Shown here piece by piece: positions 10,671 to 41,251 of a DNA stretch of 56,941 bases (position 1 is the stretch's first letter; every line of letters begins with the position of its first letter). Below the pieces are notes generated by a model that had not been told where the DNA came from, did no database searches, and saw only the letters and a list, made by a program, of their open reading frames with translations. The position numbers and the translations under genes were made by a program. Source of the DNA: Phycisphaerae bacterium (GTDB lineage: Bacteria > Planctomycetota > Phycisphaerae > UBA1845); NCBI GenBank assembly GCA_013360585.1, contig JABWBH010000014.1:84770-141710 (forward strand), given 5' to 3'.

Positions 10671-12602
10671 TCACGGACACTGCGCCACGACGTCGTTGCG
10701 GCAGTTCGCCGGGTCCGTCAGCTTGATCGTCTTCGGACCCGTGCCGTAGCAACAGAGCACCGCCTTCGCCTTGCGGTCGAAAATGCCGACCGTGGTGGGC
10801 GTCCCGGCCATGTTGAACGTCACCGTCCATCCGTCCGTTGAGTTGTCGAAGAACACCGCCTTCGCCACCAGGTTTCCGTTGGACTTGCAGTTGCCCTTGA
10901 ACTTCTTGAGGTTGTCGCAGCGCGTGTCGATGTCCGGCAGTCCCATGTTGTGCTGGGAGAAACCCTCGTCGATCTGGCGGTAATGCGGCGAACCGTTGTC
11001 GATGTTGCCGTCGTCGTCATCCAGCGTCGCGAAGTCGATCGCAATGCCCGGCTGAATCCCAGGCGGGTGCAGCAGGATGCTGTTCAGCCACAGCTCGCGC
11101 GTGATTGACAGCCCGTTCAACCCGTCGTCGTTCAGCGCCTCGACCGTGTGCCAGACGCAGCCCGACATGATCTCGCCGCAGAAATGATTGCCGCTGTTGC
11201 ACGGATACTGCCGGTTCGCCGTGTCCCCGTTCCGCAGGCACCCCGTGTTCTGCCCGAAAAAGTCCTCGCCGACGCACGGCGTGTTCGCCGTCATCGCCGA
11301 CGCCACGTCCGCATTGCCTTCGTGATACGACCCGTATGTCGGCCAGGCGTTGTCGTGCCCCTTCTCCACGATGTGATGTCCGTACTCGTGGTAGCAGACC
11401 GTCGAGTAAGACATGTTCGGACAGCCGCTGCCCGCGCGGTAGTAATTCGTCGATAGATCGCCGTTGATGTCGTAGAACGCATTGCAAGAAGAGCTGATAT
11501 TCACCTTCGCCTTGCGCTTGTCGTTGATCGGGTAGCTGTTGTTCACCGACAGCATCAGTTCGTTGATTTCGTGCAGCTTCAGGATCGCGTTGACCTGCGC
11601 CGTCACGAACTCCGTCGGCGAGTTGTTCAGCGTAAAATTGCCCGGACCCGGCGGCGTCACGCTCTGGCTGACGGAAAGGTCGCCCCCCGTCCCGTGATTG
11701 TCCACGTCGAAAAGCCGACCGTTCAGATCCACGACGATCGTCACGGGCGAATTCCCCGGGTTCGAAACCGTGTAATTCCCGTTGTCGTCCGTGTACGTCT
11801 GTGCATTGTTGCTCTGGTTCGTGATGTGGGCGTCGCCGATCGGCATAAGCGCCGCAGGATTGTTCCCCTGGTCCGGTTTCAGCCCCGGCGTCGCCTTGCC
11901 CTGGACGTTTCCGGATACGTCGATGTGCAGCCGGCCGTCATGCCGGTCGAGGATCGCCCCGTCGCGGGCACCCACGTAGACCAGCCAGTTCTCGTAGGCG
12001 TGGATGTCGTCGATCGTCGCCGTCAGCTTCCACGTCAGCGCCGGTTCCCCCGCGCGCGGGTAAATGACCAGCTCCGGCTCCGTGAAAATGTTGAGGTGCG
12101 CGTATTCCGCCTGCACGACGCGCGTCGCCTCGAAGGCGTCGATCGTCGGCGTCGTCGAGAACCCGTCGGGGATCTCGAAAAGGTCCGCATTCACCAGCAC
12201 CACGCCGTTCTCCGCGTTCCGCACCAGCGCCGTGATCCAGCATGTGTCCACCCGCACCCCGTTGTACACGTGCGCGTACGTGAACGCCGTGAACTTCCCG
12301 CCCATCACGTCCTGCGAACCGTTCGGCGCCAGCTCCGCGGCCCCGACGCCCCACATTCCTGAGTACCGCGCGATGAACGCATCCGCAGCCTCCCGCGCCG
12401 TGGCGCCCGTCGAGAACGCCCGACCCCAGACCTGCATCAACCGGCCTGACGCCTCGTCATGACGCAGATGCGCCTGCGGTTGCTCCTGTGCAAAGGTCGC
12501 TTCACTCGTCTGCCGCAGGTCGTTCGCACCGAACGCCGCTGTCGTCAGAAGCGCCGCCGTCGCGCCTACACTCGCCGCCCTCCCCAGCCGATTCCAATTC
12601 AT
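10671..12602 (-). CDS. secreted zinc metalloprotease, HEXXH gluzincin type
   Basis: A 643-residue protein with a signal peptide (residues 1 to about 25, cleavage after AFG), an FTP/PepSY-like propeptide region (about 40-220), a carboxypeptidase-regulatory-like beta domain (about 225-300), and a catalytic domain with HEYGHH near residue 405 as zinc site. HEGNADVASA about 20 residues later supplies the likely third ligand Glu, as in thermolysin-related gluzincins and M36-like enzymes. Several Cys in the catalytic part suggest disulfides. AAGGGGAG precedes ATG 12602, and a terminator follows the stop. The likely role is extracellular protein degradation. Confidence 0.85.
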   Translation of the reverse strand: MNWNRLGRAASVGATAALLTTAAFGANDLRQTSEATFAQEQPQAHLRHDEASGRLMQVWGRAFSTGATAREAADAFIARYSGMWGVGAAELAPNGSQDVMGGKFTAFTYAHVYNGVRVDTCWITALVRNAENGVVLVNADLFEIPDGFSTTPTIDAFEATRVVQAEYAHLNIFTEPELVIYPRAGEPALTWKLTATIDDIHAYENWLVYVGARDGAILDRHDGRLHIDVSGNVQGKATPGLKPDQGNNPAALMPIGDAHITNQSNNAQTYTDDNGNYTVSNPGNSPVTIVVDLNGRLFDVDNHGTGGDLSVSQSVTPPGPGNFTLNNSPTEFVTAQVNAILKLHEINELMLSVNNSYPINDKRKAKVNISSSCNAFYDINGDLSTNYYRAGSGCPNMSYSTVCYHEYGHHIVEKGHDNAWPTYGSYHEGNADVASAMTANTPCVGEDFFGQNTGCLRNGDTANRQYPCNSGNHFCGEIMSGCVWHTVEALNDDGLNGLSITRELWLNSILLHPPGIQPGIAIDFATLDDDDGNIDNGSPHYRQIDEGFSQHNMGLPDIDTRCDNLKKFKGNCKSNGNLVAKAVFFDNSTDGWTVTFNMAGTPTTVGIFDRKAKAVLCCYGTGPKTIKLTDPANCRNDVVAQCP

Positions 12603-12833: not shown

Positions 12834-15821
12834 TCACGCCGGTTGCAGGACGTCACGGGCGGGCGACGCCGATTCAGGCGAAAACCCGTGCCTCAGCGTG
12901 TTCTCACTGATCGTCCGCGGCACGAGCATCGCCTCCACCAGCGACGCATCACCGACCCGGATGCCCGCGCCCCACGCAGCCGGGCCCCCGACCGGGTGAC
13001 GATCGACCTCGCCGCCCACCGTGGGTCGGTTGATGAAAAGCGCCCCGACCTCGAGGGACTCCCGCGCCAGGGCGATGTTCGCTGGACTCCGCGAATACAA
13101 TCCGCCGACCAGCGCTCCGCCCTCCGCGTTCACGCGCCGGATCGCTTCGGAGACATCCGCGCATCTCGCCACCTCGAGAACCGGCCCTGCGGCCCGCGCC
13201 GCATGACGACCCGCTCCCACGTCCGCCACAACGATCGCCGGAGCAACGTAGCACTCGCCCAGACCGTCCGGCGCATGACCCTCGTAAATCAGGCGCCCCG
13301 CGGCCCGCGCGGCGTCGAGTCGCGCTCGGACCGCACCCGCAGCGGCAGCGCTCCTCAGCGGCCCGACGTGCGTCGCAGGATCCTCCGGATTTCCGACTCT
13401 CAGGCTCGACAACGCCTCGCTGAGACGCTCGCAGAAGACGTCACAGATTCCGTCAACCACAAAAAGGCGCGTTGCCGCGTCGCGCTTCTGACCGCAATAC
13501 GCAAGCCCCGACACGACCACCCCGGCCAGCGCCGCATCCAGATCGGCGTCGTCATCCACGAGGATCGGGTTCGGACCCCACGCCTCGCCGATGAACACAC
13601 GCCGCAGCGACACCGGCGCGCCCTCCCCGAGGCATGCTGCCCGCAACCGCGCGCACACGTCCGCATCGGCAAACGTCGCCACGACGCGCACGTCCGCATG
13701 CCTTACCGCATGATCGCGCACCGCGTCGCTGGCCGGCGCCACTACCGCCGCAACCTCCGCAGGAAGCCCACCTCGCCGTCCTACTTCCGCCAGAAGGTTC
13801 AACGCGGGCGCCGCCTCCGCCGCCGGCAGCACCAGCACCACGTTCCCTGCCGCCAGCGCCGCCGACATGCCGGCCGCCGCGCACGCCAGCGGAGAACCCG
13901 CCCCGCAGAACACCGCGGTCAGTCCTCGCGACGCATAACGAACGACATTGTCCTCGCCCGGAACGCCGCGACGCCGCGGAAACGCGTCAAGACCGGACAT
14001 GCATGCCGCGTGAAACCGAAGGTAATCCAACGCCTGCGCAACCTCCGCGTCCGCCTCGCGCCACAACATCCCGCAATGAACCACCAGCGCCGCCGCGATG
14101 GCATACCGCTCCGCCTCCACGCCGTCCGCCCAGCGCAGCAACCGCGCGCACCGCTCCTCCACCGCCGTCCGCCGCCACGCCTCGCCCCCGCGAGCCAGCC
14201 GCGCCGCTTCCAGGTCCACCCGAACCGTGTCCGCCGCGAGGGATGCCGATGCCGCATGAAGATCGCCGTGATCGTCTCCGTCCGCGGAAGACCCCTTGCG
14301 GATCCGCGCGAGCGCAGTCCGCATGCGCTCTCGTGCGTCCTCCGTCGAAAACCCGATCCGCGCAGTCTGACGAAACGTTGGCATGTGTCTCTCCAGTTCG
14401 TTCGGCGGCGAGGCGTAACTCAGTTTCGGCAGCGACGAACTCCGCGGCCGCCGCACTGCGGGGTCCGCAAGTCGCTCCGCATACCGCGCCCGATCCGCAA
14501 ACCCCTGCTTCAGAAAGGAATCGTTCGACGTGTTCTCCAGCAGTCGGCGGATCAGGTACGCCATCCCGGGCAGCATGTCCCCGTAAGGCGCGTATACGCG
14601 GAGACACCGACCCATCCCGGCCACCGCCGTCTTCAGCGGATCGCCCATCCCGTAAAGCATCTGACACTCGTACCCCTCGATCGGAACGCCAAGATGCTCC
14701 GCCCACGCCATCACCGCCGCGATCGTCCGCACGTTGTGGCTCGCAAAGCACGGCCGGATCAGCCCACGCTCCCCCAGCATCGTCCGCGCCATCCGCTCAT
14801 AACACGCGTCCGACTCCCACTTCTGCGTCCACACCGGCGGCGCCGTATGATTCCGCACCGCCGTGGCGACCTCCGAATCCCAGTACGCCCCTTTCACCAG
14901 CCGCACCGCAAAACGAGTCTCCCGGCGCCTCGCGTAATCCAGTATCCGCTTCAGATCCTTCTCGCCGTCCCGCAGGTACGCCTGAACCACGATCCCCACG
15001 TCCGGAAAATCCCGGAACTCCGGCTCGCTCATCACGGACTCAAAAAGATCGAACGTCAACGCCCGGTGCTTCGTCGACTCGATGTCGATGTTGACGAACG
15101 CCCCGAGTTCCCGGGCGCGCCGCAGCAGCGGCCGAAGCCGTCTTGCCACCGACTCGATCGACGTCTCCGGCGTCCCCGGGTCGAAGTGCGGGTCCATCCC
15201 CGTCAGCTTGATCGAAATGTTCACGCGCGGCTGCGGGCCGAACTCCGTCTCATCGAGGATCGCCACGCCCGGCCAGTCTCGCGCAACCGGACACAAACGC
15301 TCCAGTGCGTCATGAAACACGCCGACGTAGGCGTCCGCGCGGGCGTCGCTCGTCGTCGACTCGCCCAGCACGTCCAGCGTGAACGTCATCCGCTCCCGCC
15401 GAAGACGCTCCAGCGTCGCCCGAACCGACTCCGTGTCATGACCGGTAATGAAGCGGCCCGCCATCATCCGCGCGCCGACCCTCGCGCACGCCCCGATGAG
15501 GCGGCTCGTTCGCCCTCCGCTCGCCGCCCCCCGCAGCGCCCACAGCGCCGCCCCGGGGACCGGAGCCCTCGCAGCCACGAGATACTCATGAAGGTGCCGC
15601 GAAATCTCGGCGTCGCTCCGCAACACCGGAAGGCAATCCACGAACTGGAACACCGCCGCCTTCAGCCGTGGATCGGCGTCCACCAGCCGCGTCGCCTGCT
15701 CCATCCACCACGCCCGCGCCGGGAACGCGGCCTGCGCCGCCGCCGATCGCTCGAAGATCTCCTCGCCGAGCGCCGCGATCCGCCGCTCCACGTTAGTTCC
15801 GGTTTCCCTCGCGCTTGTCAC
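12834..15821 (-). CDS. putA: PutA-like proline dehydrogenase with degenerate aldehyde dehydrogenase domain
   Basis: A 995-residue protein. Residues ~120-470 form an intact FAD proline dehydrogenase barrel: DVLGE, KLTGMDPHFD, VQAYLRD, RLVKGAYWDSE, CQMLYGMGD and RRLLENTSNDSFL are all conserved. Residues ~550-980 are homologous to P5C dehydrogenase, but the nucleophile motif GQKC reads GQKR (Arg780, codon CGC), the WNFP oxyanion region reads AGSP, the NAD-binding KPAE reads LPAAE, and no FTGS motif is visible. It should therefore oxidise proline to P5C but probably not P5C to glutamate. GTG 15821 overlaps the addA stop by 4 bases (GTGA), so the two genes are translationally coupled. No DNA-binding domain is present. 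Confidence 0.88.
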   Translation of the reverse strand: MTSARETGTNVERRIAALGEEIFERSAAAQAAFPARAWWMEQATRLVDADPRLKAAVFQFVDCLPVLRSDAEISRHLHEYLVAARAPVPGAALWALRGAASGGRTSRLIGACARVGARMMAGRFITGHDTESVRATLERLRRERMTFTLDVLGESTTSDARADAYVGVFHDALERLCPVARDWPGVAILDETEFGPQPRVNISIKLTGMDPHFDPGTPETSIESVARRLRPLLRRARELGAFVNIDIESTKHRALTFDLFESVMSEPEFRDFPDVGIVVQAYLRDGEKDLKRILDYARRRETRFAVRLVKGAYWDSEVATAVRNHTAPPVWTQKWESDACYERMARTMLGERGLIRPCFASHNVRTIAAVMAWAEHLGVPIEGYECQMLYGMGDPLKTAVAGMGRCLRVYAPYGDMLPGMAYLIRRLLENTSNDSFLKQGFADRARYAERLADPAVRRPRSSSLPKLSYASPPNELERHMPTFRQTARIGFSTEDARERMRTALARIRKGSSADGDDHGDLHAASASLAADTVRVDLEAARLARGGEAWRRTAVEERCARLLRWADGVEAERYAIAAALVVHCGMLWREADAEVAQALDYLRFHAACMSGLDAFPRRRGVPGEDNVVRYASRGLTAVFCGAGSPLACAAAGMSAALAAGNVVLVLPAAEAAPALNLLAEVGRRGGLPAEVAAVVAPASDAVRDHAVRHADVRVVATFADADVCARLRAACLGEGAPVSLRRVFIGEAWGPNPILVDDDADLDAALAGVVVSGLAYCGQKRDAATRLFVVDGICDVFCERLSEALSSLRVGNPEDPATHVGPLRSAAAAGAVRARLDAARAAGRLIYEGHAPDGLGECYVAPAIVVADVGAGRHAARAAGPVLEVARCADVSEAIRRVNAEGGALVGGLYSRSPANIALARESLEVGALFINRPTVGGEVDRHPVGGPAAWGAGIRVGDASLVEAMLVPRTISENTLRHGFSPESASPARDVLQPA

Positions 15822-18800
15822 TTCCGTCCTCGCTCCGCCCTCCGCGCCGGAAAACTACCGGGCTCGTCCGGCACCGTCCAACGCCCGCTCCCCCGCGACT
15901 CAATCACACGCCGTGCCGACAGAAACACCAGGTGACACACCGCCACCGGCTTCCGGAATACCTTCGTCATCGCCCGCGCGTACGACGACACCTGAGGCGC
16001 GTACTCCGTCGCGCGCCCCGCAACCGCCTCCGCTGTCAGGCGGTCCGTCTTGTAATCCACCAGTTCGATCACCCCGTCTTCCTCCAGCGCCAGATCGACA
16101 ATCCCGCGGACAAGCACCCGGTCTTCGGTCGCCGCATCCGCGATCCCGCCGTCCGCAGACGCCGCCGGTCCCAGCTCAATAAACGCCAGCTCCCGGTGCA
16201 GGCACACTCCGGGCGACGCAAGACGCGAAGCAAGCGGCGTGCCGAGAAACCACGCCACCGCCTCCACGTCGATCAGGCCCGCGTCTTCATCCGACAGAAC
16301 CCGTTGCGCAATCAGCTCGGCGATCTGGGGTTCCGGTCCTTCCCGGAGGGCGCGCGGAAACTCCAGATGTTGCAGCAACCGGTGCGTCGCGATCCCGCGC
16401 CGGCGCGCAACCTCCGCCCCGGTTCCCGACTCTTCCAGCGACCGCGCCGCCGCCCCCACGACGCGCGTCTCACGCGCATCCGCAGCGTCGTCGAAGGCTC
16501 GCTTCAACTCGCTTGCCGCCGTCACCGCCGGAACCGACGAGGCGGCAAGATGCGGATAAAGATAGTCCACGCACGTCAGCACCTCGCGCGTCGCCCCGCC
16601 CGGATTAATCGGCTCGTCTTCGGGCAACGGCGCAAGTCCGGCGACCGCCCTGCGGAGGTCCGCAGCACGACCTCCCCGCGCCTCTTCTTCAGGCAATCCC
16701 TGGCTGACACCCTCCGAAGTCCACGCGAAAACCCCCGCCACCGCGCCCGCCGGCAACCGCTCTGCCCCCGCGTCCTTCTCCCCCGATCCCCAGAACACCC
16801 GGTCCGGTCCGACGCAACGCAACGCCGCGAGAACCCAGTTGATCGGCGCGTCCGCCGTCCGCACTTCCGCAGCCGCGTCGTCGATGTTGACGCGGACCTC
16901 GTCGCCGTCGTTTTCAGGCATGACGCGAGGACTGGCCGTCAGGATCAGCCGGTCCTCTGCTCGCGTCATCGCCACGTAAAGAACACGCATCTCCTCCTCG
17001 ATAAGATGACTCTCCAGCTCGTCACGCACCAGCAGATGCGCCAGGGACGGATACTCGAGGAATCTCTCTCGATCGACGACCCGCAGACCCAGCCCCCGCG
17101 CCCTCCCGAAAAGCATCGCCCCCGCCAGATCCTTCCGGTTCAGCGCCGCTCCCAGTCCGGCGACAAAAACCACCGGAAACTGAAGCCCCTTGCTCGCGTG
17201 GATCGTCATGATCCGCACCGCGTCCGCGCCGCCCCCGCGCGAGGACGCCGACGCCGGCCGACGCGCCTCATCCTCCAGCAACTCCACGTAACGCAGAAAC
17301 CGGTGCAGCCCCTGACGATGAAAGGTGGCGAACCGACCGGCGTGATCATGCAGCTTCAGCAGATTCGCGCGGCGCGCCGCGCCGTCCGGCGCGCCGCCGG
17401 CCCGCGCCAGGTGTCCCGACCGGTCGTACAACTCCCCGAGCACCTCCGCCAGCGGATGCTCCCGCGCGGACCGACGGAAGTAAACGATCGTCTCGAAGGC
17501 CTCTCGAAGTCGGTCGCGCAGCTCGCGGTCGCCCCCTGTCTCCGCATACTGCGCCGCCGCCAGGTGAAACGGAACACCGGGCGATGCGAGTCGGACCTCG
17601 ACCAGTTCCGTCACGCTCAACGAGGGTCCGAACATTCCGCTCCGCAGCGCCGACGCCAGCGGCACATCCTGGCGAGGGTTGTCCAACACACGCAGCGCCG
17701 CGATCACCTCTCGGATCTCCCGCGACTCCAGAAAGTCGCCTCCCGCATCCGCGTACGCCGGGATGCCCCGCCGCGTCAGCATCCGCTCGATCAACCGCGC
17801 GTTCACCCGCGCCGCACGGACCAGCACCGCGAAGTCCGCAAAGCCCAGCGGCGCACCGTCGCGCCGCACGGCGCCGCCAGCCGTCAGACGCAGAATCCGC
17901 GCCGCGATCAGATGCGCCTCTCGCTCGATCGTCGACCACTGCGAGGGATCCTCTCCCCCGTCTGCCTCAGGCGACTCCGGCGGCTCGTCCTCAAACGCAC
18001 CCTCGTCCACCGGTTGCCGCGGGATCAGGTGGACCTCGACCGCGGGCGCGCTCCACTCCGGGCGCTCCTCCCGCGCATGACGCAGGTACGCCGCCTCGTC
18101 GTAGTCGATCAACCCGCCTCCAGGCCGCCACAACACCTCGAACACGAGGTTTACGAACTCGATCACCTTCGAACTGCTGCGGAAATTGTGCTGCAAAGGA
18201 ACGACGCAACCGCCGTCGCCGAGCGCCCCCAGCGCCTTGGCCCGCTCCAGAAAGATCGCCGGCTCTGCCAGCCGGAACCGGTAGATGCTCTGCTTCACGT
18301 CCCCCACGACGAAAAGGTTCCCCGAAGCCCTGTCTTCGCGGCTCGCCGCCGCGATAATCGCCGCCTGCACCGGATTGATGTCCTGAAACTCATCGACCAG
18401 TACATGCCTGAACCGGCGCCGCGCCTCGCGCGCAGCCTCCGTCTCCGCTCCGCCGGACCGCCCCTCGTTTCCGTCGCCGACAAGCACGCGCAGCGCAAGC
18501 CGCTCCAGGTCGGCGAAATCGAGCACGTTCTCGATCCGCTTACGCTCCGCATATCCGTTGCGGAACGACTCCACGAGCGCCAGCAGCGTCTTCGCATAAG
18601 GCGTCGTACGCTTCAGCCCGTCAAGAAACTCCTCCGTCGTAAAAAGCGCTACCCCTTCCTGCACACGCTTCTTGAACCGCCCGACCACCGCGTCGAAATC
18701 GTCGAGCGCCCGGTTGAGCGCCTCATCCTCCGGCGACGGGTCTCGTTTGTTCCGCCGCGCGCCCGGCGGCTTCTGCGGATCGATCGCCGCCAACTCCGCG

Positions 18801-19696
18801 CGCAACGCCTCAAACAATGCGGAAGCCCCCCTCGCCTCGCGGAAGCCGTCCTCCCCGGCGATCACCGCCAGCCGGTCCGCGCACGCTTCCAACTGACCCG
18901 CAAGACCCTGCAACGCCGCGCGAACCTGAAGCACGCGATTGTCTTTGATCGTCGGTTGGCGAAGCACTCGTCGCGCCGCCGAAGCCGACGCCCGCGCCTC
19001 CCGTGCCAGCATCGCCGCGGCCTCCGCCAACATGATCTCCGCTCCGCCTGTCAGCCGATGTCGCGCCGCACGGATCCACCCCGGCGGATCGGGCACGCTG
19101 TCCAGAAATGCCGCCAGCCGCAGAACGAACTCCGCCGCCGTCCGGTCGTCTCCCAGTCCGTAGTCGTCGATCAGCCGCACAAAACCGAGACCGGCTTCAT
19201 GTTCAGGATGCGCGGGGTCCGTCGCGGCGCGGTAAAGCGTCTCGAAGCGCTCGTCACGCACTGCCGTCGCGAGAATGTCCGCCTCTTCCTCGGACAGGAT
19301 CGTCGCGCCTGGGTCGATCCCCGCGTCAAGGAAATGCCGCCGGATCAGGTCGTTGCAGAACGCATGCACCGTCGAAATGTGCGCCAGGTCCGCCAAGACG
19401 CACTGCTCCCGAAGTCGCGCATGATCAGGATCAGCCTCGAGACGACTTCTCAGCAGTCCGACGATCCGCGCGCGCATCTCGGCCGCGGCCGCTTCCGTGA
19501 ACGTCAGTACGAGCAACTGATCCAAGTCGCAACGATGTGGCGCTGGGGCATCGCAGACGAGATAAACGCAGCGCTGAGCGAGGACGGACGTCTTCCCGGA
19601 ACCCGCCGCCGCACTGACCAGCACCGGAACACCGGTTGTTCGGATGGCGCGAACCTGCTCGGGTGTGGGCTGAATCTGCGGCACGACGCCGGACAT
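15818..19696 (-). CDS. addA: AddA-type helicase-nuclease (UvrD superfamily)
   Basis: A 1292-residue protein: Walker A AAAGSGKT near residue 31, the LTFTEAAAAEM motif, VLVDEFQDINPVQ (motif II), VAMTRAEDRL (motif VI) and a C-terminal RecB-like nuclease with GIVDLAL and LVDYKTDRL active-site residues. This matches AddA, the subunit that with AddB processes double-strand breaks for RecA loading. Length is in the normal range (about 1,200 residues or more). AddB is not next to it: the upstream neighbour is divergent and unrelated, so the partner lies elsewhere or the enzyme acts differently. The start ATG at 19696 is 98 bases from the divergent gene at 19795. Confidence 0.9.
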   Translation of the reverse strand: MSGVVPQIQPTPEQVRAIRTTGVPVLVSAAAGSGKTSVLAQRCVYLVCDAPAPHRCDLDQLLVLTFTEAAAAEMRARIVGLLRSRLEADPDHARLREQCVLADLAHISTVHAFCNDLIRRHFLDAGIDPGATILSEEEADILATAVRDERFETLYRAATDPAHPEHEAGLGFVRLIDDYGLGDDRTAAEFVLRLAAFLDSVPDPPGWIRAARHRLTGGAEIMLAEAAAMLAREARASASAARRVLRQPTIKDNRVLQVRAALQGLAGQLEACADRLAVIAGEDGFREARGASALFEALRAELAAIDPQKPPGARRNKRDPSPEDEALNRALDDFDAVVGRFKKRVQEGVALFTTEEFLDGLKRTTPYAKTLLALVESFRNGYAERKRIENVLDFADLERLALRVLVGDGNEGRSGGAETEAAREARRRFRHVLVDEFQDINPVQAAIIAAASREDRASGNLFVVGDVKQSIYRFRLAEPAIFLERAKALGALGDGGCVVPLQHNFRSSSKVIEFVNLVFEVLWRPGGGLIDYDEAAYLRHAREERPEWSAPAVEVHLIPRQPVDEGAFEDEPPESPEADGGEDPSQWSTIEREAHLIAARILRLTAGGAVRRDGAPLGFADFAVLVRAARVNARLIERMLTRRGIPAYADAGGDFLESREIREVIAALRVLDNPRQDVPLASALRSGMFGPSLSVTELVEVRLASPGVPFHLAAAQYAETGGDRELRDRLREAFETIVYFRRSAREHPLAEVLGELYDRSGHLARAGGAPDGAARRANLLKLHDHAGRFATFHRQGLHRFLRYVELLEDEARRPASASSRGGGADAVRIMTIHASKGLQFPVVFVAGLGAALNRKDLAGAMLFGRARGLGLRVVDRERFLEYPSLAHLLVRDELESHLIEEEMRVLYVAMTRAEDRLILTASPRVMPENDGDEVRVNIDDAAAEVRTADAPINWVLAALRCVGPDRVFWGSGEKDAGAERLPAGAVAGVFAWTSEGVSQGLPEEEARGGRAADLRRAVAGLAPLPEDEPINPGGATREVLTCVDYLYPHLAASSVPAVTAASELKRAFDDAADARETRVVGAAARSLEESGTGAEVARRRGIATHRLLQHLEFPRALREGPEPQIAELIAQRVLSDEDAGLIDVEAVAWFLGTPLASRLASPGVCLHRELAFIELGPAASADGGIADAATEDRVLVRGIVDLALEEDGVIELVDYKTDRLTAEAVAGRATEYAPQVSSYARAMTKVFRKPVAVCHLVFLSARRVIESRGSGRWTVPDEPGSFPARRAERGRK

Positions 19697-35944: not shown

Positions 35945-36403
35945 ATGGTGCGATTTCGGAACGTTCTGCTGCCGACCGATTTCTCGGACCTTGCGCGCAA
36001 TGCGGCGCCTTTCGCCCGCTCCGTCGCCGAGACCTACGGCGCCACGCTTCATGTCCTGCACGTCATGTCTCCGGAGGTGCAGCCCTTTCCCGCCCCTGAC
36101 ATCGGGATGGGCGTCCTGGCGCTGCCCCCGGACGAGGAGCAGGCGAAGCGCTTTCTGGAAACCTTTGTGCGCGACGCCGTCGGTCCGACCCCGTCGCGCG
36201 TCGTGACGGATGCGCGGATCGGCGCGCCGGTCGCCGAGATCACGCGCTACGCCTGCGACCATCAGGTTGATCTGATCGTCATCGGCACGCACGCGCGCGG
36301 GCTGGTCACGCGCATTTTTCTCGGATCCGTCAGCAAGGCCGTGATGGAGCACGCGCCGTGCGCCGTTCTGATGGTGCCGCTGCGGGCGAAGGAGGAGGCG
36401 TAA
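35945..36403 (+). CDS. universal stress protein, UspA family
   Basis: 152 residues with one USP domain: N-terminal FRNVLLPTDFSDLA, the ATP-binding pattern near the end GTHARG then GSVSKAVMEHAPCAVLMV (G-x2-G-x9-G-S/T type). Such proteins respond to starvation and oxidative or other stresses, often by binding ATP. GAGGGAGG lies 5-6 bases before the ATG. It stands alone, divergent from marR and convergent with the selenoprotein candidate. Confidence 0.93.
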   Translation: MVRFRNVLLPTDFSDLARNAAPFARSVAETYGATLHVLHVMSPEVQPFPAPDIGMGVLALPPDEEQAKRFLETFVRDAVGPTPSRVVTDARIGAPVAEITRYACDHQVDLIVIGTHARGLVTRIFLGSVSKAVMEHAPCAVLMVPLRAKEEA

Positions 36404-36478: not shown

Positions 36479-37276
36479 CTAGGGCGCGGCGGCGGTCAGC
36501 CGCTCGATCACGTCAAGGATCTCGCGCGGATCGGGACGATCCTGAATCCGCTGCGCGATGCGGCGCCAGAGCACTTCGCCTTCGCGCCCGATCAGAAACA
36601 TCGCGGGGACGGTCGTGTCGCCGCCGTGAGGATTCCCGCCCGCATGCAGCAATCCGAACTGCCGGACCACGGCCGCATCCACGTCACTGAGGATGTCGAA
36701 GGGAAGGTCAAGGCGCTCGACGACGTCGCGTGATTCCGACGGGGCGTCGACGGACACCGCGATCACCTGCCCGCCTTGCGCCTCCAGCCTGCGATGAACG
36801 TCTCCGAGCCCGCGGAGCTCCGAAAGACAGGTGATTCACCAGTGCCCGCGGTAGAACACCAGCAACGTCGTCCCGCGTTGATAGAGGGACGCAAGGTTGA
36901 CCGGCTGACCGCTTTGATCCGGAAGCGTGAACGCCGGGACACGCGCCCCGACCTCCGGTGCGCCGGCAGGCGGGGGGAGCTTCGCGGCGAAAAAGAACAT
37001 GCCCGCACCGAGCAGGAGGAACCCGCCTGTGCCGATCGCCGCGCCTTTCGCCCGTCGGCGACGGTCCGTCTTCAGCGTCATCAGGCTGACGACGGTTCCC
37101 GCGATCATCAGCGCGAAAGATTGCAGCGCGGTGGACCGAAGCCGCGGGACATCCAGCCAGATCAGGTACGCCGGGATCGACAAAAGCGCGAGCACCGGTC
37201 CGATCAGGTAGGCCTTCGACGGCCGCTGTGCGACTCGTTCCTCCTGCGTTGGATTGACCGTTTCCGTCGTCGACAT
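36479..37276 (-). CDS. membrane-anchored peroxiredoxin-like protein, probable selenoprotein (UGA = Sec147)
   Basis: The frame is interrupted only by one TGA at 36838-36836. Read through, it gives 265 residues: three membrane helices (about 22-42, 50-70, 78-100), then an AhpC/TSA-Redoxin domain (115-262) with VPAFTLPDQSGQPVNL, LLVFYRGHW, the TGA codon, ITC, LSELRGLGD and IAVSVDAPSE. The TGA stands exactly where this family has the first Cys of CxxC (FYRGHWCxxC), giving UxxC with Cys150. Sequence after the TGA keeps full family similarity for 118 codons. A 5-bp hairpin with a G in its apical loop begins 18 bases after the TGA. Known bacterial Prx-like selenoproteins use the same Cys-to-Sec replacement. 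The alternative is a nonsense mutation. ATG 37276 is chosen as start. Confidence 0.72.
36802..36838 (-). promoter_or_regulatory. candidate bacterial SECIS element with its UGA
   Basis: Downstream of the UGA (36838-36836), the minus strand folds as CTCCG-CGGGCT-CGGAG (36817-36802): 5-bp stem, 6-base apical loop with G at the second loop position, loop starting 23-24 bases after the UGA. This fits the published bSECIS model (UGA-to-loop distance 16-37 bases, a G among the first two loop bases). The hairpin is short, so the support is moderate. Confidence 0.5.
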
Positions 37277-37330
37277 GCCTCGCACCTTGCTTGCGCGCCC
37301 CACGACGAACGCGACATCGCCGGTCCCCGC

Positions 37331-38191
37331 TTACGATCCGGAAGGCATTGAGTCTTTTCGGAGGCGTTCAAGTCGGTCCGCCACCGGCCAATGTTTGCCC
37401 TCCGCGGCGCGGATGTCAACGAGGTCGGATTCCTTCGCCGCCGTCGCCTCCGACGTCGCGGAAGGCGCGGCGATCCCGTTTCCGCCGGGCGTCGCGGCAT
37501 GAACGCCGCGCGGGAACCGGACCCTGAACTGCGTGCGCCCGACCTCGATCACGTCATCCTGGTGAAGATGCGCGAACCGCCGGGGTTCGCCGTTGATGCG
37601 CAGCGGGACGGACGCGAGCACGTCGGCGATGACCGCGCGATCATGATGCTTGAAGAGAATCGCGTGAACGCGGGATACCTCCTCGTCCTCGATCGCGATA
37701 TCGCAACCCGACCGCCGACCGATCAGACACACGTCGCGCGCCGGCTGAAACAGGCGCCGCGTCCCGAGATGTTCCAGCGTCGGATCCCCCGGCGAGGCGT
37801 CCAGGTCGATCTCCGCTTCGGGCGCCTCCGCGTCGGGCGGCGCGATCTCGACGCGGAATTCCCACGGCCCCAGTGTCAGCACGCTCCCGTCCAGCACTTC
37901 ATCGACACGGAGCGGAAGATCGTTATGCCGCGTCCCGCGCAACGTCGCCAGATCGCACGCCAGCCAGCGCGAACCGGTATGCACCAACGCCAGGTGGACC
38001 GGCGCCACGGCGGGGTGCTGAAGATTGATCTTGCACCCTGGTCTCGAACCCACCAGCGTCACGATCCGTCGACACGGGATGCGGCGTCCCAGCCCCTCGC
38101 CCCGGGTGATCCGAAGCGCGGGCGAGAAGCGCCCCCCCGCCACAACCGGGTAATCCGTGCTTGAGGATTGTTCAGGTTGGCCTTTCAACAC
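37331..38191 (-). CDS. tandem FHA-domain protein
   Basis: About 286 residues with two forkhead-associated domains. The first holds RRIVTLVGSRPGCKINL and the second VCLIGRRSGCDIAIEDEEVSRVHAILF, with the GR-S-H pattern of phosphothreonine binding complete in the second; in the first the Ser-x-x-His part is replaced (VAPVHLAL). A Pro/Ala/Ser-rich tail follows. The start is unclear: GTG 38191 is used here, while GTG 38356 lies 13 bases after a TATACT box and the frame is open to 38554. FHA proteins read Ser/Thr kinase signals; no kinase gene is adjacent. It lies between the selenoprotein candidate and the two-component cluster, same strand. Confidence 0.7.
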   Translation of the reverse strand: MLKGQPEQSSSTDYPVVAGGRFSPALRITRGEGLGRRIPCRRIVTLVGSRPGCKINLQHPAVAPVHLALVHTGSRWLACDLATLRGTRHNDLPLRVDEVLDGSVLTLGPWEFRVEIAPPDAEAPEAEIDLDASPGDPTLEHLGTRRLFQPARDVCLIGRRSGCDIAIEDEEVSRVHAILFKHHDRAVIADVLASVPLRINGEPRRFAHLHQDDVIEVGRTQFRVRFPRGVHAATPGGNGIAAPSATSEATAAKESDLVDIRAAEGKHWPVADRLERLRKDSMPSGS

Positions 38192-38369
38192 GCACCCATC
38201 CGAGACGACCGCCGGGGTGGTTCCAGAGCACCCGGAAAGCTCCCGCGTTCCGCCACGGCTTGCGGCCCCTTGCTTCGATGCAACGCGACCTCTTTCGGCG
38301 TCAGTTCCCCGGCCGGCGACCGGGAAGCCGCCGACCGTAACAACCGTCTCCAGCACGGGGAGTCCAACA

Positions 38370-38375
38370 AGTATA
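38370..38375 (-). promoter_or_regulatory. candidate -10 box for the FHA gene
   Basis: The minus strand reads TATACT; a weak TGGAAG is 18 bases upstream. If used, the FHA protein would start at GTG 38356 or further down. Confidence 0.3.
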
Positions 38376-38531
38376 GCGGTCCGTGAAGGGCAGCTTCCAC
38401 GATCAACCCGACACATGTCCAGCGTGGCTTGGTTAAATCCGCGCAAGGTTTCAAAACGAGACTCGCCCCGGATTATGTGACGTTCCCAGTTAACCGGAGC
38501 GATCACGCAAAGGGCGATGCCCCGCGGTCGG

Positions 38532-39185
38532 TCACGGCTCGGAGAGTCCCTCACGGATCGCGAAGCGGGCCAACTCGACGCGGTCGTGGATGTCGAGCTT
38601 GTCCATCAGGTTGCAGGTGTGTTTGTCCACCGTCTTGATGCTGAGGTTCATGAGCTGGGCGATTTCTTTTTTCGACAGCCCGCGGGCGATGTAGCGCACC
38701 ACCTCGATCTCCCGCGGCGTCAGTTGCGACGCCCGGGTTTGCGGGCGCGACGCCAGGCTCAGACCGGAGGATCCCTGCACGATCCGCTCGCGGATCGCGT
38801 CGGAGAAGTACGAGAGGTTGTTCGCCACGTTGCGCACCGCGCTGATGATCGTGTCCGCCGGCTCCGTCTTGGTGATGTAGCCGAGCGCGCCGACCGCCAG
38901 CGCCTGCTCGATGTAGTGATCGTGCGTGAACGCGCTGAGGAAGAGGATTCGTGTGTTCGGCCTTGAGGCGAGCATGCGCCGGGCGGCGTCGAAGCAGATC
39001 AGACCGGGCATGTCGATGTCCATCACCACCACGTCCGGGGAATGCGCCAGCACAAGATCGAACGCTTCATCGGCGCGCCCGGCGGTGGCGACCACCTTGA
39101 TGTCGGGCTCTCGCTGGAGGCGCTCCGCCAGCATTGATTTCACCAGCGTGTGATCGTCGGCGACGAGGACGCGAATCGGATTCAT
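38532..39185 (-). CDS. NarL/FixJ-type response regulator
   Basis: 217 residues: receiver with acidic pocket ADDH (9-12), phospho-acceptor Asp56 in VVMDIDMPG, Lys in YITKTEP; then a LuxR-type HTH (about 152-205) with LTPREIEVVRYIARGLSKKEIAQL and SIKTVDKHTCNLMDKL. It is a transcriptional output regulator. Its ATG overlaps the stop of the receiver-kinase gene by 4 bases (ATGA), so the two are translationally coupled and are the likely cognate pair. Confidence 0.93.
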   Translation of the reverse strand: MNPIRVLVADDHTLVKSMLAERLQREPDIKVVATAGRADEAFDLVLAHSPDVVVMDIDMPGLICFDAARRMLASRPNTRILFLSAFTHDHYIEQALAVGALGYITKTEPADTIISAVRNVANNLSYFSDAIRERIVQGSSGLSLASRPQTRASQLTPREIEVVRYIARGLSKKEIAQLMNLSIKTVDKHTCNLMDKLDIHDRVELARFAIREGLSEP

Positions 39186-40744
39186 CGGGGTCGGTCTCCT
39201 TGGTTTCCCGCCCGGATCGCGCGGCGAACGGCGCCGACGAATTCGCCCATCGTGAACGGTCGATCCAGCGGATACTCGTTCGGTTGCGGCGGCCGGACTC
39301 CCTCCGTCCCCGGATCTCTCAGCAGGATCACCGGGCAGGGACCGCCGATGCGCCTGAGCTCCTCGTGCGAGGGGCGCGACGCGCTCCCGTGACCCGGGTC
39401 AATCACGATCAGATCATACGACCGCCCCGCCCCGCCGCAAACCGCCGCGGCCTCCTGCATCCCGTCCACCTGCGTCACACGGCATCCGGCGCTGACCAGC
39501 GTCTCCGCCATCACCGCCCGATGTTGACGGTCCGGGCAAAGCAGCAGCACGCTCGCCCGCAGAGACTCCGTCGCCCGCGCTCCGTTGATCTCGTTGGCGG
39601 GTTCCGCCACCGGTTTCCACGCCGGCAGCAGGATCAGGAAACGCGTCCCCCGCCCCGGTTCGGACTCGACGTCGATCCACCCGCCGTGGTCCAGAATGAC
39701 GCCTTGCGCCATCGGAAGCCCCAGCCCCGTGCCCTGACCGCGCGGTTTGGTCGTGAAGAACGGATCGAACACCTGACGCCGCACGTCTTCGCTCATCCCG
39801 TGACCGGTGTCCTCGACGGTCAGCAGGATCGCGTCATCCTCGACCTCGCGGGCGCGCAGCGCCGCCGGTCGCGGCGTCACGGCGGACATCTCCGCCACGG
39901 AGAACGTCAGCGTTCCGCCGCCGGGCATCGCATCGCGGGCGTTGACCGCGAGGTTCATCAGCACCTGTTGCATCTGGGTCGCATCCCCGTGAACCCAGAG
40001 GCTGCGCCCTTCGGGCCGATTCGCCCGGATCTCGATCGACGCCGGAAGGATATGCCGGAAAAGCCGCGCGCTTTCGTCGACGAGGTGGACGACGTCCACC
40101 GGCGCGTACATCGCCTCGCCGCGCCGGCTGAACCGCAGCAACGATCGCGTCAGATCCACGCCGTTCTGGCACGCCTGCGCGATGCCCGACAGGGCGTTCT
40201 CGACCGGACTTCCCGCAGGCGCGTGCATCCGGGCGAGCTGAAGATAACCCTGGATCGCCGTCAGCAGGTTGTTGAAATCGTGGGCGATCCCCGTGGCGAG
40301 CTGGCCGACGGCCTCCATCTTCTGCGCTTCGCGCAGTTGCGCCTTCAGCAACCGCTGCTGCCGCCGCTCGGCGCGCATCCGCAGCGACTGCTCGACCGCC
40401 GGACCGAGGCGCGCCAGGTTGGATTTCAGGACGTAGTTGTCGGCGCCGCGCTTCAGGCAGTTGACCGCCGACTCCTCGTCGATCGTCCCCGTCACAATGA
40501 TGAAGGGAATCTCAGGTCGGTGAGCCCGCACGACCTTCAGCGCGTCCATCGCGCTGAAGCGCGGCAGCGTGTAATCCGAAAGGACCACGTCCCAGTCCGT
40601 CCCGCCCAGTGCCTCGCGCAACGAAGCCTCCTGATCGACGACCCGATGATTCACGGTGAACCCGGAGCGCCGCAGCTCGCGCAGACACAGGTCCACGTCG
40701 CTGGCGTTGTCTTCGACAATGACAACCTTGACGGGTCCGGCCAA
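39182..40744 (-). CDS. receiver-histidine kinase hybrid
   Basis: About 520 residues: N-terminal receiver ([15 protein letters not shown]; Asp in LSDYTLPRF), coiled linker, HisKA with [19 protein letters not shown] (phospho-His), HATPase_c with [16 protein letters not shown] and [16 protein letters not shown], and a C-terminal receiver-like domain (about 410-510) in which LIVIDPGHG keeps an Asp but other pocket residues are altered. There is no membrane segment or input domain, so its input is probably phosphate from another kinase, making it a relay intermediate. TTG 40744 is taken as start because GGGGAGG lies 5 bases ahead. It is followed by the overlapping NarL-type gene. Confidence 0.85.
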
Positions 40745-40819
40745 GATGACCTCCCCGCCCACCTCACAGGCGGGCGCAAGCGTCCAACCCCCGGTTCGCA
40801 ATTCCGACGCGCGCCACGA

Positions 40820-41251
40820 TCACGACGTCGGCGGTTCGTTCAGAAGCATCCAGTACATCCCGAGCTGCCGCACGACTTCCGCGAAGGCGTCGAACTCGAC
40901 CGGTTTGCAGAGGTAACTGTTGACCCCGAGGGCGTAAGCCTCCCGGATGTCGGGGATCTGGCGCGACGACGTCAGCATCACCACCGGGATCGTGCGCGTC
41001 CGTTCGTCGGATCGAATCCGCCGCAACACGTCCAATCCGCTGATCTTCGGAAGCTTCAAGTCCAGCAGAATGAACCTCGGAACGTCCACCGGCTGGCTAC
41101 GATCCTCGGGCAGCAGGTATTCGACGACCTCCGCCCCGTCGCGAAACACCCGGATGCGGTTCGCCAGTTGATGATCCCGGAACACGCGGAGCGTCAGGTC
41201 CACGTCGTTCGGATCGTCCTCAACGAGCAGAATCTCCGTCGGCAGGCTCAT
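40820..41251 (-). CDS. single-domain response regulator, Rcp1 type
   Basis: 143 residues, a stand-alone receiver: LLVEDDPNDVDLTLRVF, phospho-acceptor Asp64 in ILLDLKLPKISG, VVMLTSS and SYLCKPVEF. The PNDVDLTLR start and the length are typical of Rcp1-like regulators that accept phosphate from phytochrome-like or multi-PAS kinases. Its start lies inside the 3' end of the multi-PAS kinase gene (32-base overlap), so it is surely the partner. It has no output domain and may pass phosphate on to the next kinase. Confidence 0.93.
   Translation of the reverse strand: MSLPTEILLVEDDPNDVDLTLRVFRDHQLANRIRVFRDGAEVVEYLLPEDRSQPVDVPRFILLDLKLPKISGLDVLRRIRSDERTRTIPVVMLTSSRQIPDIREAYALGVNSYLCKPVEFDAFAEVVRQLGMYWMLLNEPPTS

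Follow-up and report, generated by a model that had tools for sequence, protein, structure and literature searches.

An in-frame TGA very probably read as selenocysteine in a membrane-anchored peroxiredoxin-fold protein of planctomycete bacteria

The window analysed here is a stretch of 56,941 nucleotides from the contig JABWBH010000014.1 of a Phycisphaerae bacterium. On its minus strand, at positions 36479-37276, lies a gene for a predicted selenoprotein formed by a three-helix membrane anchor and a peroxiredoxin-fold domain, recognised from its translation, its Pfam match, its homologues and dN/dS comparisons. The frame runs from an ATG at 37276 to a TAG at 36481-36479 (coding part 36482-37276) and encodes 265 residues. 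It contains exactly one TGA, codon 147 (36838-36836, minus strand), within the motif FYRGHW-U-ITC. According to the translation and the homologues this codon is a predicted selenocysteine (Sec), the first residue of a UxxC motif. An earlier note on this DNA had described a single in-frame TGA at the place of the first cysteine of FYRGHWCxxC, with Cys150 completing the motif, and the translation of the 265-codon frame bears this out. Cys150 is the sole cysteine of the protein, and Sec147 and Cys150 are its only redox residues. The assignment of the ATG at 37276 as start codon is uncertain, since the frame extends to a GTG at 37303 and the homologue L020 has no ATG at that place.

A mechanical ORF list splits the gene, as anticipated in the earlier note, into separate pieces at 36836-37303 and 36479-36766. 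Taken at face value, these pieces would mean that the TGA is a real stop, i.e. that a three-helix membrane peptide is followed by a peroxiredoxin half that is either a remnant or a separate gene. The similarity and the selection on the two sides of the TGA point elsewhere. The joined product matches the Pfam family AhpC-TSA with 92 bits over residues 109-236 in a profile search. On their own, the halves obtain 24.7 bits (profile positions 1-38) and 53.7 bits (positions 41-122), which places the TGA at their join. In all four pairs of relatives compared, dN is lower than dS on both sides of the TGA; for the pair L018 and L019 dN/dS is 0.064/0.260 upstream and 0.016/0.141 downstream. An open frame with family similarity on both flanks had been claimed before and is confirmed by these values, and the scattered stops and frameshifts in close relatives that had been named as a sign against a selenoprotein were not seen. 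The low dN downstream of the TGA argues against a real stop, a reading that we consider very improbable given also the homologues and the family-level hairpin described below.

Upstream, a gene with FHA and Yop-YscD domains (37331-38554, minus strand) has a stop that ends 54 bases before the ATG. Co-transcription of this gene with the selenoprotein gene is possible; their adjacency is found only in the two nearest species. Downstream, a universal stress protein gene (35945-36403, plus strand) is convergent and not part of the system. When the region was compared with 15 other loci, no conserved neighbour was found that would name a substrate or a partner. Only the two halves of the selenoprotein gene itself recur widely in these 15 loci. 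Gene order is preserved in G001 and G003 alone and differs in G002, a member of the same genus. Three distant loci also contain an aminotransferase-family gene with about 30% identity.

Four candidate TGA read-through sites were found in the window, the selenoprotein gene included. The other three were rejected: the frame upstream of 19980-19978 (CAELCGG, a copper-site-like motif) has no Pfam match, reading through 40822-40820 would join two genes with separate Pfam domains, and the frames around 11185-11187 are short and face a long frame on the minus strand. The window also holds a run of regulators at 38535-41251 (minus strand), consisting of a LuxR-type response regulator, a hybrid histidine kinase and a lone receiver. 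A PutA-type proline dehydrogenase/aldehyde dehydrogenase fusion (12837-15821) adjoins the gene of a UvrD-like helicase with a C-terminal PD-(D/E)XK nuclease domain (15821-19696).

Of 60 relatives, 59 show some match. Among the matches listed from these 60 relatives, all 21 membrane-type forms (L018-L038, the window's included) have a TGA at the same codon. Across the phylum 110 of 392 genomes show a match at 1e-20. We read the best 30 of the phylum matches, one of which is the window's own locus; 25 of the 29 others carry a TGA at the motif, and the remaining four (L140, L141, L158, L159) carry Cys. A scan of named genomes, performed with a pattern of Cys codons only and so blind to TGA forms, gave 79 Cys relatives, including the three-helix Cys form L052. 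The alignment of homologues at position 147, proposed earlier as a check, thus returns Sec or Cys at codon 147 in those read, as in a bacterial selenoprotein whose UGA is kept at one site or exchanged for Cys. One codon shared by 21 of 21 membrane-type forms among the matches listed is hard to reconcile with a real stop. It also bears on a sequencing error or a local nonsense mutation in this genome, an explanation for which we found no supporting point and which is refuted by homologues with the same TGA in assemblies of many species; its probability is negligible.

The alignment A1 contains 19 of the 21 membrane-type forms, with L022 and L028 left out due to a terminal stop inside the range. 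A larger set has 45 membrane-type rows grouped by hand; helices were counted in all of them but L159, and L136, L144, L147, L152, L154 and L160 have fewer than three at the hydropathy threshold used. Apart from L159, every row had been selected for RG and for U or C at position 147, and these columns carry no weight in the 45-row set. Cys occurs in all 45 rows only at columns 147 and 150. A separate Prx-like locus without predicted helices, L047 (G016:C7:77729-78037), has two in-frame TGAs in FYRGHWURYU, a UxxU double-Sec motif; its genome has a selB over the cut-off.

The window genome (4.24 Mb, rated 97.33% complete) contains the genes needed to decode UGA as Sec. We found selA (553 bits) and a selB over the cut-off, which lie near each other on the contig that contains the window, as well as selD and a tRNA-Sec of 68.3 bits with the anticodon TCA (UCA). 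The earlier note had supposed that the organism decodes UGA in this way and had regarded the absence of all such genes as decisive against it; the full set is there. In an RpoB tree, the genome groups with Phycisphaerae and Pirellulaceae records (8 rows, support 98/100), so it very probably belongs to the Planctomycetota, in the class Phycisphaerae or close to it. The selD gene of this genome (L048, G000:C46) is itself Sec-containing, with a TGA at SCAGUAGK forming a U-x-x-K site. UxxK is listed as the motif of Sec-containing SelD in Table 1 of PMC13188914.

Among the 29 phylum genomes of the best loci, selB is over the cut-off in 26, comprising all 25 with a TGA and G111, whose locus L159 has Cys. 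The three genomes without selB over the cut-off are G361 (L140), G200 (L141) and G076 (L158), rated 79%, 91% and 88% complete, respectively. L140 and L141 are three-helix Cys forms with a TGC codon, and L158 is a Cys form with no helices. That two genomes lacking a selB over the cut-off have a Cys codon here speaks against the TGA being a real stop. L141 (Cys, no selB over the cut-off) and L138 (Sec, selB, genome G169) belong to one genus and are 64% identical, and they pair in the tree with a support of 100/99; L140 pairs with the Sec form L139 at 96/75.

Among the matches listed from the 60 relatives, a TGA membrane form occurs in 21 genomes, 20 of which have selB over the cut-off. The exception, G041, has a UGA form and a best selB match of 197.1 bits, below the cut-off, in an assembly rated 67% complete. 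As 50 of the 60 relatives overall are over the selB cut-off, the link between TGA and selB is weak by itself in that set. For L052, the host genome gave no selB match at E<=1e-60. Of the tested genomes holding Cys relatives of any architecture, 10 of 23 have selB over the cut-off, so the Cys form alone does not equal a loss of Sec. In a tree of 57 rows the distribution of Sec and Cys requires at least 8 changes; shuffled labels require 8.6 on average, so no clustering beyond chance is evident.

A bSECIS-like hairpin is located at 36802-36820 (minus strand), as assessed by folding, by synonymous versions of the gene and by published rules. It can be paired in two registers. In register I, 36817-36813 pairs with 36806-36802 (5 bp, 23 nt after the TGA) around the six-nucleotide loop CGGGCU, with G second. 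In register II, 36820-36815 pairs with 36811-36806 (6 bp, 21 nt after the TGA, -8.6 kcal/mol) around the three-nucleotide loop CGC, again with G second. The legend of Fig 2 in PMC13188914 gives as bSECIS limits a loop of 3-9 nt, an upper stem of 4-16 bp, G in loop position 1-2, a spacing of 16-37 nt and an MFE of -7.5 or lower. The window hairpin lies within these limits, but for this gene alone it is no better than shuffles. Against dinucleotide shuffles it is unremarkable (z -0.39 for 26 nt and -0.15 for 48 nt), and 7.4% of the synonymous versions of the window gene fold as well as the native one.

Across the family the SECIS-like hairpin is stronger than the protein sequence demands. With pooled codon usage, the folding energies of 45 UGA loci sum to -418.0 kcal/mol, compared with -252.7 for synonymous versions (sd 16.1; the lowest of 400 sets reached -300.5). 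L131, a duplicate of L018, was left out of this sum together with L038, L039, L041, L042 and L047. With local codon usage, and also without L146 and L149, the 43 Sec forms have a mean z of -1.95, 37 of them below -1. For the 78 Cys relatives (of 79) that passed the motif filter, the mean z is -0.27, with 19 below -1. The hairpin is absent from the Cys forms L140 and L141 (z +0.42 and +0.34). These rows are not independent, since close relatives repeat each other; L018, L019 and L020 share one hairpin.

Covariation was examined in a set (A3) of 30 rows, 26 of them distinct, chosen by the protein motifs ELRG or ELQGL and not by pairing. In the 26 distinct rows, 87.2% of the cells are paired and two of the six stem pairs are changed on both sides. 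None of the 500 shuffles reaches the observed share of paired cells, number of cells changed on both sides or covariation score. Two other measures do not stand out: 110 shuffles have at least as many pairs changed on both sides, and 487 have at least as many pair types. Slides -2 and -1 give higher covariation scores than the hairpin itself (0.210 and 0.195 against 0.173), but they pair only 59.0% and 56.4% of the cells. Two overlapping registers occur across the family, and in other clades the stem is shifted by a few bases. The hairpin claimed earlier, with G in the apical loop at the expected distance, is therefore present and real at the level of the family, and the window copy alone is not convincing. 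At the family level it argues against a real stop. Two Cys relatives, L052 and L082, from genomes with no selB match at E<=1e-60, have a strong hairpin (z about -3.0 and -4.9); they may be relics of SECIS elements or, among 78 relatives, chance results.

The three predicted membrane helices span residues 21-42, 44-68 and 75-97 (36986-37216, minus strand). They are predicted by hydropathy and by the AlphaFold model, in keeping with the three N-terminal helices of the earlier note. The AhpC-TSA or peroxiredoxin-fold domain follows at residues 109-265 (36482-36952, minus strand), as delimited by Pfam, the AlphaFold model and the VIA Z score. The mean pLDDT of the model is 84.4, with block means of only 54-75, a moderate value, for the helices and mostly above 90 for the peroxiredoxin-fold domain, which reaches a VIA Z of 23.8 to 5epf and 3hjp. 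By hydropathy, three helices are found in 21 of the 21 membrane-type forms among the matches listed from the 60 relatives. They are also found in 16 of 28 motif-filtered phylum loci, the other 12 having fewer at the same threshold.

Positively charged loops lie on the inner side of the membrane according to the positive-inside rule. The window protein has three Lys/Arg in its tail, two in the first loop and six in the second. Most forms have their positive charges in the tail and the second loop, with L038 and L139 reversed and L137 and L140 weak. By the rule, charges in the tail and the second loop place the catalytic domain outside. Judged from the hydropathy scale and the charges, the three N-terminal helices thus probably put the peroxiredoxin-fold domain on the outer face. 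Two Sec relatives, L146 and L148, have one hydrophobic segment followed by a Cys (LAGC and VTAC), which we take to resemble a lipoprotein signal; this would be a different means of bringing the domain to the outside of the cytoplasmic membrane.

Peroxiredoxins are characterised by a PxxxT/SxxC signature and an arginine before a late strand. In four alignments with peroxiredoxins (2cx3, 2ywn, 5epf, 3hjp), Sec147 is found at the Ser/Thr, Arg143 at the proline and Pro224 at the arginine. Cys150 is aligned with a cysteine in three of the four and with a serine in the 3hjp chain, a position presumably that of the peroxidatic cysteine. All 19 rows of A1 have Arg143 and Sec147 instead of the peroxiredoxin Pro and Thr/Ser, and Pro224, in place of the Arg, is present in the same 19 rows and in 42 of the 45 membrane-type rows. 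When aligned with ResA (4nmu), Sec147 and Cys150 coincide with its WCxxC and Pro224 with its proline, forming a WUxxC site. From these replacements and the ResA-like site we infer a Sec-based thiol:disulfide reductase with a disulfide as substrate. The protein has the PF00578 domain and the UxxC of a Prx-like thiol:disulfide oxidoreductase. The earlier description as a peroxiredoxin-like enzyme suits the fold; it probably does not apply to the chemistry, given Sec147 at the Thr/Ser and Cys150 at the peroxidatic cysteine.

A true Sec peroxidase is a tentative alternative that we consider rather unlikely. In such an enzyme, H2O2 or lipid hydroperoxides would oxidise Sec147 at the membrane surface, and Cys150 would act as the resolving residue. 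The peroxiredoxin fold (Z 23.8, Pfam AhpC-TSA), the best PDB sequence matches, which are PrxQ/BCP-type peroxiredoxins, and the universal stress gene next door all suit a peroxidase, but Arg143, Sec147 and Pro224, each conserved in all 19 rows, occupy the places of the signature Pro, Thr/Ser and Arg, and a ResA-type WCxxC with its proline stands in their stead. In the profile search PrxQ/BCP obtains a higher score (93.3 bits) than ResA (62.7 bits). With the PrxQ/BCP peroxiredoxins (2cx3, 3hjp, 5epf) the window protein shares the fold, but it differs in lacking both Pro-x-x-x-Thr/Ser-x-x-Cys and the Arg. With ResA, TlpA and DsbE it shares the position of WCxxC and the proline, as seen in the alignment to 4nmu. 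ResA has a membrane anchor of one helix and an outward domain. An anchor with an outward domain would be common to both, whereas the window protein has Sec for the first Cys and three helices, not one.

UxxC Prx-like selenoproteins are already in print (PMC1088965, PMC2398784, PMC9312934, PMC13188914), under the names "Prx-like" (PMC1088965) and "Prx-like 1" (PMC2398784), and as PF00578 with UxxC/UxxU in Table 1 of PMC13188914. Selenoproteins are also known in planctomycetes (PMC4807772). The window protein has in common with this UxxC/UxxU family the AhpC-TSA domain, Sec as the first residue of UxxC and bacterial UGA decoding. It differs by its three N-terminal helices, as far as the published main texts on this family, whose representative is WP_010940744, go. 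The word "transmembrane" is absent from the main text of PMC13188914, PMC1088965, PMC9312934 and PMC2398784, and among the matches listed from the open-access literature no title concerns a membrane-anchored or N-terminal transmembrane form. Fusions of Prx-like selenoproteins with unknown domains are mentioned in PMC2398784, and the three-helix form may be among them. The best NCBIfam match by E-value is the SelL-related redox protein NF040769, which the window protein matches with 61.1 bits, below the cut-off of 120; none of the 12 models listed at E<=0.01 reaches its cut-off. Of the proposed new selenoprotein, only the three-helix architecture thus seems to be new, since UxxC Prx-like selenoproteins had been published (PMC1088965, PMC2398784, PMC13188914). 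The anchored three-helix form is common among planctomycetes and has apparently escaped description so far.

Overall, the stop is very probably read as selenocysteine, and the product would be a membrane-anchored redox enzyme. The selenoprotein part is carried by sequence evidence: one frame with one TGA, the Sec machinery, homologues with TGA or Cys and a family-level hairpin. In the mechanism that we propose, SelB with Sec-tRNA(UCA) would insert Sec147 after binding to the hairpin, located about 21-23 nt downstream of the UGA. The three helices would anchor the protein in the cytoplasmic membrane with the N-terminus in and the peroxiredoxin-fold domain outward. Sec147 would act as the nucleophile, attacking a disulfide (or a hydroperoxide) and then forming a selenenylsulfide with Cys150. 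Sec147 would then be regenerated by an outside donor; the DsbD/CcdA thiol-delivery route is the simplest choice, and the two DsbD_TM genes of the window genome are candidate electron suppliers for it. As a whole, i.e. a selenoprotein with SelB/hairpin decoding, an outward anchored peroxiredoxin-fold domain and Sec147 as nucleophile with Cys150, we consider this proposal likely.

We lean, with less assurance, towards a distinct and old family of anchored selenoenzymes across the Planctomycetota, perhaps beyond, with Sec on the outer face. In this family Sec would be exchanged for Cys and the hairpin lost where SelB was dropped, leaving a Sec/Cys pair within one genus. The same-genus pair of L138 (Sec, selB) and L141 (Cys, no selB) is a ready natural experiment on the keeping of selenium in an enzyme. 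For annotation, the case matters since the gene appears as two in a plain ORF call. With this protein, a selenoprotein family gains a membrane-bound and probably envelope-facing member; the main texts searched mention no such anchor in this family.
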